Origin: Rhodothermales bacterium
Lineage (GTDB): Bacteria; Bacteroidota; Rhodothermia; Rhodothermales; JAHQVL01
Reading direction: 5' to 3'
NCBI GenBank assembly: GCA_034439735.1
Contig: JAWXAX010000074.1
Coordinates: forward strand, 1 to 35,000
DNA: 35,000 nucleotides
In this document: in pieces, positions 1-4,737 of the stretch
Position numbering within the stretch: the first letter of the stretch is position 1
Layout: each line of letters opens with the position of its first letter
Made by a program: the position numbers and the translations under genes
The notes under the pieces: model-generated
Seen by the model: the letters and a program-made list of their open reading frames with translations, nothing else
What the model was told of the DNA's origin: nothing
The model's database searches: none

Positions 1-375
1 CGCGAAGGCCGTGAGCCCCGTGAAGGGCGCGAAGGCCGTGAAGGTCGCGAAGGCCGTGAGCCGCGCGAAGGTCGTGAAGGCGGTGAGTGCCGCGAATGCC
101 GCGAAGGCGGTGAGCGCCGAGAGAGTCGCGAAGGCCGTGAGGCCCGCGAGCGGAGCGAGGGCGGTGAGCCCGCGGCCGGCCGTGAAGGCCGCGAGCGCCG
201 TGAAGGCCGCGAAGGCCGCGAGCCCCGCGAAGGTCGCGAAGGCCGTGAGCCCCGCGAAGGCCGTGAGCCCCGCGAAGGTCGCGAAGGCCGTGAGCCCCGC
301 GAAGGGCGTGAACAGGGCGAAGGACGGCAATCTCGTGGCCGTGATGGCCGCAACGGACGCGGTTCACGCGACGAT
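1..375 (+). repeat. Imperfect in-frame repeats coding REG/REP units
   Basis: The DNA is built from imperfect 9-base units such as CGCGAAGGC, CGTGAAGGC and CGTGAGCCC. In the RNase G/E frame they encode Arg-Glu-Gly and Arg-Glu-Pro with occasional Gly-Gly-Glu, Cys-Arg-Glu and Ala variants. The frame is kept open throughout and unit lengths are multiples of three, so the repeat is part of the protein. The last part (about 310-375) grades into a GRDGRNGRGSRDDR sequence resembling an RG-rich linker. Confidence 0.85.
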
Positions 376-1779
376 CGCCAGCCGGCCGAAAAACGAATCC
401 ATTCGCCCGAGGCGCATCTCAGGCGAGATCGACACATCCTCGTAAAGATTGTCAAGGAGCCGATTTCGGCCAAAGGCAGCCGCGTCTCGACCGATATCTC
501 GCTCGCTGGCCGCTTCCTCGTCTTGGTGCCGCTCGCCAACTACGTGGCGGTGTCCAAAAAAATCTTCTCGTACAAAGAACGGCGCCGCCTCCGCGCGTTG
601 GCCAAAAGCCTTCTTCCAGAGGGTTTCGGCGTCATTGTACGCACCGTAGCCGAAGGCAAGAAAGCCAAGGAACTGGATACCGATCTTCGCCTCCTCCTGG
701 ATAAATGGCGCAAGATCGAGAAAAAGCTGCAGGGCTCGCCGGCAGCGCCGATAGTCGTGCATGAAGACGTGAACATGGCGTCTTCGGTTATTCGCGATCT
801 GTTCTCGGACGACTACGACCGCATCCTCATCGACGACCCGAAGCTCTACCGTAACGTTAAGAACTACGTGCAGGCCATCGCGCCGCACATGGTGCCGGCC
901 GTGCAGCAGCACAAAGGGAAGCGCCACATCTTCCAGGAAGCCCGCATCGCCCGCGAAGTCCAGCAGGCGTTCGAAAGCCGCATCGAACTGCCCTCGGGCG
1001 GCTACCTGTTCATCGAACATACCGAGGCAATGCACGTCGTCGACGTAAACTCGGGGCGCGCCGGCCGGGGGCTTTCCCAGGAGGATAACTCCCTCAAGGT
1101 GGATCTCGAGGCCGTCCAAGCCATCACGCGACAGGTGCGGCTGCGCGACCTCGGCGGCATCATCGTCGTGGACTTTATCGATCTCCGCCTCGACCGTAAC
1201 CGCAAAAAGGTCTATAACGAGCTCCGCAAGGCGTTCCGGCAGGACCGCGCCGTCACGAAAGTGCTGCCAATGAGCGATTTTGGTCTCATCGAAATCACCC
1301 GGCAACGCCTACGTCCTAGCATCACGAAGACGTTTGCGCCCAGCGCCGGCGCGATCACGATCGTCGGGGATGCCGAGCCTGCACAGATGCCAGTCGCGCC
1401 GGATGCGCTGGTTGCTCCTCTGGACCACGGTCTCGAGCTGGCCACTGTGCTCGATCGGGAGGATCCGGTGCCGATGGACATCCAGACGTTCCTCGAGAAG
1501 GTGGACCGCTGGATCCAGAAGTTCAAAGAGAAGAAGGAAGGCAGCACGGTACATCTGCTTGTACACCCGTTCACGGCCGCATACCTGACGCATAACTTCC
1601 CGTCCATCCGATTGGGGTGGTTCTTCAAGTACTTCATCCGCGTGCACATTCGGGGTGATGAGAAGATGGCGCCTTTCCGGTACCGCTTCGTCGACCCCGA
1701 GACGGGCAAACCGTTTCGCAACGATCGCCGGCGCGGGAAGAAACGCAGTGAAGAATCCGGCCCTGAAGTCGTAGATTGA
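1..1779 (+). CDS. rng: Ribonuclease G/E (5' end outside window) with Arg/Glu/Gly-rich insertion
   Basis: Single-strand endoribonuclease of the RNase E/G family, used for rRNA maturation and mRNA decay. The reading frame is open from base 1, so the true start lies upstream; 592 residues are visible. Codons 1 to about 125 form a low-complexity stretch of REG/REP units. From about 436 the sequence resumes as the end of an S1 domain (ILVKIVKEPISAKG, then ISLAGRFLVLVPLANYVAVS), which is a clear family signature. The two catalytic Asp residues sit in VVDVNSG (codon 1042-1044) and VVDFIDL (codon 1171-1173). RLRPSI is followed by APSAG where most relatives have the CPxCxG Zn-link. The C-terminus ends in a basic tail (RRRGKKR). 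A start at 523 would cut the S1 domain and is wrong. The insertion lies in the S1 loop where other Bacteroidota enzymes also carry extra sequence. The family call is very secure; G versus E naming is by length and phylum. Confidence 0.95.
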   Translation, partial: REGREPREGREGREGREGREPREGREGGECRECREGGERRESREGREARERSEGGEPAAGREGRERREGREGREPREGREGREPREGREPREGREGREPREGREQGEGRQSRGRDGRNGRGSRDDRQPAEKRIHSPEAHLRRDRHILVKIVKEPISAKGSRVSTDISLAGRFLVLVPLANYVAVSKKIFSYKERRRLRALAKSLLPEGFGVIVRTVAEGKKAKELDTDLRLLLDKWRKIEKKLQGSPAAPIVVHEDVNMASSVIRDLFSDDYDRILIDDPKLYRNVKNYVQAIAPHMVPAVQQHKGKRHIFQEARIAREVQQAFESRIELPSGGYLFIEHTEAMHVVDVNSGRAGRGLSQEDNSLKVDLEAVQAITRQVRLRDLGGIIVVDFIDLRLDRNRKKVYNELRKAFRQDRAVTKVLPMSDFGLIEITRQRLRPSITKTFAPSAGAITIVGDAEPAQMPVAPDALVAPLDHGLELATVLDREDPVPMDIQTFLEKVDRWIQKFKEKKEGSTVHLLVHPFTAAYLTHNFPSIRLGWFFKYFIRVHIRGDEKMAPFRYRFVDPETGKPFRNDRRRGKKRSEESGPEVVD

Positions 1780-4219: not shown

Positions 4220-4270
4220 CCACGTCGCTCGCTTCCCGTAGCGGCTCGCGGCTCACCCGGCGTAGCGGTA

Positions 4271-4347
4271 GCCCTGCCTGGTGGAAGCCCTGCCTGGTGG
4301 AAGCTCCGCCTGGTGGAAGCCCCGCCTCGTGGAAGCCCCGCCTCGGA
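4271..4347. repeat. 16-bp tandem repeat, about 4.8 copies
   Basis: Four complete head-to-tail 16-base units start at 4271, 4287, 4303 and 4319, with a partial fifth at 4335-4347. The consensus is GCCCTGCCTGGTGGAA; the first two are identical and later copies carry a few substitutions. The array lies between the end of aroQ and the terminator of the Asp-rich gene and is in no credible reading frame. Confidence 0.85.
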
Positions 4348-4429: not shown

Positions 4430-4657
4430 TTAGAAGACGTCGTCCGGTTCGTCCAGATCGTCGAAGTCGTCGTCCAGATCGTCGAAATCATCGTCCAGGT
4501 CATCGTCGAGATCGTCGTCGTCCTCAAAATCATCATCGAGATCGTCGTCGAGATCGTCGTCGAGTTCGTCGTCGTCGAGATCGTCGTCAAGGTCGTCGCC
4601 GAAGTCGTCTTCGAGATCGTCGTCCTCGAACCCTACTGGATGGAGTATATCCCGCAT
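4430..4657 (-). CDS. Asp-rich acidic microprotein with DDDL/DDDF repeats
   Basis: A 75-residue protein not recognised as a named family. After a short head (MRDILHPVGFEDDD) nearly the whole chain is a run of three or more Asp followed by Leu or Phe: DDDLDDDL, DDDEL, DDDF, then DDLDDDFDDL and a DEPDDVF end. The hydrophobic residue recurs about every fourth position, which could give an amphipathic or metal-binding surface. Synonymous codons vary along the repeat (GAC/GAT, CTC/CTG/CTT, TTT/TTC), which argues for selection on the peptide and not only a DNA microsatellite. A hairpin terminator follows the stop. ATG 4657 is chosen; a TTG at 4693 would add 12 residues. The ribosome-binding site is weak. 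A role in binding divalent metal or basic proteins is speculation. Confidence 0.6.
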   Translation of the reverse strand: MRDILHPVGFEDDDLEDDFGDDLDDDLDDDELDDDLDDDLDDDFEDDDDLDDDLDDDFDDLDDDFDDLDEPDDVF

Positions 4658-4737
4658 TGCAATACGTTGGATTATGGAAGCGAAGCTGCTCAAAACAGCA
4701 TGTAGAAAGAGCTGGACTGCTCACTCCTGTAATGAAG

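Follow-up and report, generated by a model that had tools for sequence, protein, structure and literature searches.

The RNase E/G of a Rhodothermales bacterium carries within its S1 domain a long, charged and predicted disordered insert that contains dozens of Arg-Glu-X (R-E-X) units, and with moderate confidence this insert is regarded as a putative RNA-binding and clustering element acting from the S1 loop. Insertion into the S1 domain of RNase E is already known; what is new here is the length of the insert, its R-E tandem array and its occurrence in the order Rhodothermales. The literature searched contained no paper on the RNase E of Rhodothermus.

The window, that is, the whole stretch of 35,000 nucleotides analysed, is contig C74 from base 1 in a draft genome of 304 contigs, and at coordinate 1 it opens with a contig break inside the repeat. 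The first frame begins REGREPREG..., continues through about 104 codons of R-E-X and a basic RG-rich linker, and then reaches ILVKIVKEPISAKG. A preliminary description made from the sequence alone had called the gene RNase G/E, and this identification is borne out by matches of the frame to TIGR00757 (358 bits, above the cutoff of 326) and PF10150 (312.7 bits, cutoff 25.5, E 2.9e-93). The parts of the protein in the window are as follows.

1 to 1779, plus strand: partial frame of an Rne/Rng ribonuclease, the N-terminal half of which lies on contig C96.
1 to 312, plus strand: R-E-X (REG/REP) tandem array within the S1 domain, C-terminal part, extending onto C96 (L003, 1 to about 280, reverse strand).
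313 to 402, plus strand: end of the insert, a basic RG/D-rich linker, QSRGRDGRNGRGSRDDRQPAEKRIH.
403 to 492, plus strand: remaining half of the S1 domain (SPEAHLRRDRHILVKIVKEPISAKGSRVST), located from the match of a relative to E. coli RNase E (S1 36-118) and from the strands in the AlphaFold2 model of a relative.
493 to 1320, plus strand: 5'-sensor and DNase I-like catalytic region with the conserved VDVNSGRA and VDFIDLR, placed by PF10150 (residues 167-436), alignment of a relative to 2bx2 and invariant columns.
1321 to 1460, plus strand: variable linker at the site of the CPxCxGxG zinc-link of other RNase E/G, the motif being absent.
1461 to 1779, plus strand: small domain and short basic C-terminus, without a long C-terminal tail.

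A long disordered C-terminal region was looked for and not found, 119 residues following core position 325 with the small domain included, which fits the earlier proposal that the disorder sits in the S1 loop rather than in a C-terminal tail.

The missing part of the gene is on another contig. A search of the whole genome with the first 2 kb of the window gave one other place, the end of C96 (3457 bases), where the N-terminal half (L003) is read on the reverse strand from an ATG at 1036. It consists of MQKEIIINAEKNQTR...AAFIDIGQKQDAFLHFSDLADNLPEWLELLEQ, the missing N-terminus including the first half of the S1 domain, followed by an acidic stretch, the basic motif KSRGRRRSAQRRTRQ and the beginning of the same repeat. 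Window positions 1-43 are identical to the last 43 bases of C96, in frame, but this overlap is not by itself proof of the join, because the end of C96 is perfect repeat, and synteny is required. In the relative G029 the RNase gene lies on one contig, with sdhC/sdhA on one side and a porin-like gene, w2670 and a metallo-hydrolase on the other, and these flanking genes are those of C96 and the window. C96 and C74 are thus two halves of one RNase E/G gene, the only copy in the genome. An assembly artefact, in which the repeat fuses two unrelated genes or is inflated, is very improbable: both contigs do terminate in the repeat and its copy number is uncertain, but C96 supplies exactly the missing N-terminal part of the sole RNase E/G, the overlap keeps the frame, the gene order recurs in G029, and genomes of the order that consist of a single contig (e.g., G019 and G034) also have an insert at this site. 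Joining gives a protein of 923 residues, of which about 411 make up the insert between DAFL and KIVKEP, probably a minimum and a lower-confidence figure, since the end of C96 is made of perfect 27-bp copies and the copy number is therefore uncertain. The insert is thus roughly three times longer than the 125 or so residues first estimated from the window.

The position inside the S1 domain was supported in several ways. The first half of the domain is on C96 (TIGR00757 residues 14-78; the Pfam S1 profile gives 16.9 bits on this half, below its cutoff of 22) and the second half is in the window, so that a complete separate S1 domain upstream, which had been named beforehand as an observation against the proposal, is excluded. 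The window species' protein has phenylalanines at the positions of E. coli RNase E F57 and F67, which we take to have an RNA-binding role. When a relative was aligned to E. coli RNase E, the alignment broke at about 76-77 and resumed at about 87-90, inside the S1 domain (36-118, PMC4245959), and the earlier placement of the insert in this domain is upheld by this alignment together with the C96 half. The insert would leave the domain about ten residues after the F67 equivalent, beside the RNA-binding face. Since the protein itself is split over two contigs, disorder was modelled in the same-family relative G030 (799 aa with a 278-aa insert; AlphaFold2, 20-sequence alignment), whose residues 100-330 scored less than 50 in pLDDT and were flanked by confidently modelled S1 strands, and whose best PDB match was the E. 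coli RNase E catalytic domain. The model suggests that the G030 insert is disordered within an otherwise normal RNase E fold. By its charge and hydropathy the window species' own insert classes as disordered, and blocks of charge alternate along it; the disorder suggested earlier is thus supported by charge-hydropathy in one case and by the model in the other.

The insert contains an acidic block, DDDELEVTSLDDVADDPLEIEPHDELEVAMHDGDEESEEE, shortly after the S1 strand, then a conserved RRRSAQRR motif and then the R-E-X units. Tandem repeat periods of 9/27/45 were detected at the window start, in agreement with the 9-base units proposed before. Runs of four consecutive R[DE]X units number 35 in the 5.1-Mb genome and are confined to this locus (the start of C74 and the end of C96), and the pattern written backwards, as a control, has 0 matches in the same genome; the R-E-X array is far beyond chance. 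Among the window repeat tiles, R codons differ at positions 1/2/3 with values of 0.27/0.06/0.57 and E codons with 0/0.06/0.53, while the third residue of the unit is free between G and P. Because the R and E codons vary almost solely at third positions, this shows that selection keeps the R-E pattern in this frame. Repeat slippage would then set the length of the insert, with selection retaining the charge pattern. In composition the repeat part is R 31%, D+E 32%, K 0% and G 22% (FCR 0.64), its net charge is about zero (NCPR -0.011 per residue), and per 80 aa all other ORFs in the window stay within R 0.20 and FCR 0.40. The segment had been described as RG-like and charge-patterned; the charge patterning stands, but with high, balanced R and D/E it is of the mixed-charge arginine-rich kind rather than plain RG. 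Greig et al. are said to have described, in 2020, arginine-enriched mixed-charge domains in eukaryotic nuclear speckles, which the repeat part resembles in near-equal arginine and acidic content and low hydrophobicity, without homology.

Across 98 genomes of the order, one per species, the insert ranges from 46 to 611 aa and varies strongly between species, so the answer to whether the loop is always extended in Rhodothermales is no. It is minimal in family f12 (46-66 aa) and in most of f3, about 100-160 aa in most families, 205-411 aa in the family of the window species and 299-611 aa in f8, f11 and f14. In sister orders the site holds 49-70 aa, and some of these proteins have a long C-terminal tail; in the rest of the phylum, as sampled, it holds 56-112 aa. 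The insert sequences are too divergent to show common descent with the S1 insertions of alphaproteobacteria and plants, and since only short loops are seen in the sampled rest of the phylum, an independent gain is likely; the tree of the RNase core indicates at least two gains of a long insert. The R-E-X repeat is private to the window species among those compared; inserts of the same family are dissimilar (K/P/S/Q-rich in G029, D/R/G/N-rich in G030), and many relatives have tandem repeats of unrelated sequence and period in their inserts or tails. These data bear on a near-neutral, tolerated expansion, which is rather unlikely: replication slippage would have lengthened a permissive surface loop, opposed by weak selection that acts only where aggregation or frameshift results. 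The unrelated repeats, the wide range of lengths and the privacy of the R-E-X unit agree with it, but the codon variation described above and the consistently mixed-charge, arginine-rich nature of unrelated long inserts do not. The lack of sequence conservation within the family, and the fact that f12 manages with 46-66 aa, count against the RNA-binding and clustering role. A trade-off between insert and tail was considered as a rule and rejected. No protein in the sample has both an insert and a tail of at least 200 residues, and across genomes the Spearman correlation is negative (-0.31), but at family level it is not significant (p 0.28), and with only two long-insert gains and one or two independent pairs in the tree it stays a pattern.

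RNase E S1 insertions in alphaproteobacteria and plants are 50-150 aa, charged and predicted to be disordered (PMC4245959); the position first contrasted with that in other RNase E is correct but not new. The present insert likewise lies inside S1 and is charged and predicted disordered, but exceeds that range at about 411 aa, and at up to 611 aa in the order. Caulobacter crescentus RNase E (PDB 4OXP; PMC4245959) is alike in the S1 position, high charge, predicted disorder and variable sequence and length; its insert, however, is partly helical and accompanied by a C-terminal scaffold, whereas here there is an R-E tandem array and no long tail. In Arabidopsis, deletion of the S1 insertion lowers activity (PMC4245959). 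The Caulobacter insert protrudes into the predicted RNA site, where its acidic residues may mimic RNA (PMC4245959), and this, together with the acidic block followed by a basic block in the window species' own, f11 and f14 inserts, would agree with an autoinhibitory or RNA-mimicking role, in which the acidic block (DDDELEVTSLDDVADDPLEIEPHDELEVAMHDGDEESEEE) sits in the RNA cleft until freed by the basic part. Such a role is improbable, as G029 and G030 are without a strong acidic block and the G030 model has no predicted structure in the corresponding part.

The closest functional analogue of the insert is the REER repeat of Pseudomonas RNase E. In P. aeruginosa the C-terminal REER repeats bind RNA together with two other motifs and drive or support foci, the repeat number differs from species to species, and mutation of REER alone reduces RNA binding only slightly (PMC11964227). 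Both repeats are rich in RE, vary in number and lie where the enzyme is disordered, but the Pseudomonas unit is RE[ED]R at the C-terminus and the present one is RE[GP] in the S1 loop, and no homology is claimed. By analogy, the S1 insert may do what the C-terminal REER/AR motifs do in Pseudomonas: it would supply the enzyme with extra multivalent, weak contacts to RNA and would allow the enzyme to form clusters that take in RNA and other arginine-rich partners. Given the near-zero net charge of the repeat, its binding to RNA could be weak. In the same phylum, charged motifs in the disordered part of Bacteroides thetaiotaomicron Rho have been shown experimentally to drive RNA-dependent condensation (PMC13269538); that segment belongs, like the present one, to an RNA-handling enzyme, but to a different protein, and is K/E-rich. 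Candidate partners with arginine-rich disorder are encoded in the window species' genome, which counts in favour of the RNA-binding and clustering role: Rho (L244, G000:C56) has a disordered insert of about 300 residues rich in SRD/RDRD, PNPase (L232, G000:C146) has a terminal (GGDRRGGGG)n tail, and such parts are seen in DEAD-box proteins too. Across the order, Rho proteins differ widely in how long their N-terminal parts are.

The main rival of the RNA-binding and clustering role is that the insert is mainly a scaffold, binding degradosome partners (PNPase, DEAD-box helicase) through short linear motifs, with the REG/REP array only as a spacer; it is a possible but doubtful reading of the motifs. 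Of 118 inserts, 18 from several families, the window species' own among them, have the pattern R..RR[SL]AQR, against 0 in 300 shuffles. It resembles the cyanobacterial PNPase-binding nonapeptide, whose consensus is quoted as RRRRRRSSA (PMC12489471); G029 and G030, the two closest relatives, lack the motif, however. FVIDLTSK-like motifs (17 VIDLT seen, 0.19 expected) occur in the inserts of f8 and f11, a DEAD-box helicase found throughout the order (L235, G000:C76; L258-L277) has a conserved N-terminal [FY]xxVIDLTxxAQ motif, and one Rho (L289) has AVDLTSS. VIDLT is thus a possible docking motif common to the helicase and the RNase inserts. None was found in the window species' own insert, so this shared motif concerns the relatives and not directly the window protein. 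In addition, RhlB of Caulobacter binds an S1/5'-sensor fragment that holds the S1 insert (PMC4245959), and PNPase is present in the window genome. Against a mere spacer, the array is under its own selection for R-E, which would not be expected.

More broadly, and tentatively, it may be that in Rhodothermales, where the zinc-link was also lost, the degradosome or condensate scaffold of RNase E was shifted on two or more occasions from the C-terminus to the S1 domain, tying RNase E/G, DEAD-box helicase and Rho together through arginine-rich disorder and, in some families, VIDLT. A 2011 survey gave 503-570 aa for RNase E/G of Bacteroidetes/Chlorobi, with no predicted degradosome potential (PMC3071783), whereas the open frames in the phylum reach 1316 aa, with long disordered parts in the S1 loop or at the C-terminus. 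The inserts form a natural series, from 46 to 611 aa at one site, on which the effect of an insert beside the RNA-binding face of an essential RNA-decay enzyme could be tested.

The CPxCxGxG zinc-link is common but not universal in RNase E/G. CPxC is absent in 98 of 98 genomes of the order, which have a variable linker instead; in the class's other orders 11 of 11 genomes have it, as do 8 of 9 taken more widely from the phylum. It is also absent in all 30 named Flavobacteriales, and the zinc-link was therefore not treated as defining RNase E/G. Coupling of its loss to insert growth was rejected as a rule, as the proteins of these Flavobacteriales are short (about 512-543 aa). Two or more losses of the motif are probable, with no tie to the insert.

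Elsewhere in the window, a 16-bp tandem repeat of 4.6 copies lies at 4270-4343, just downstream of a 3-dehydroquinase gene, and a putatively coding 87-aa ORF with an acidic DDDLDDDFDD repeat lies on the minus strand at 4430-4693, with a TCGTCG tandem repeat on the plus strand.
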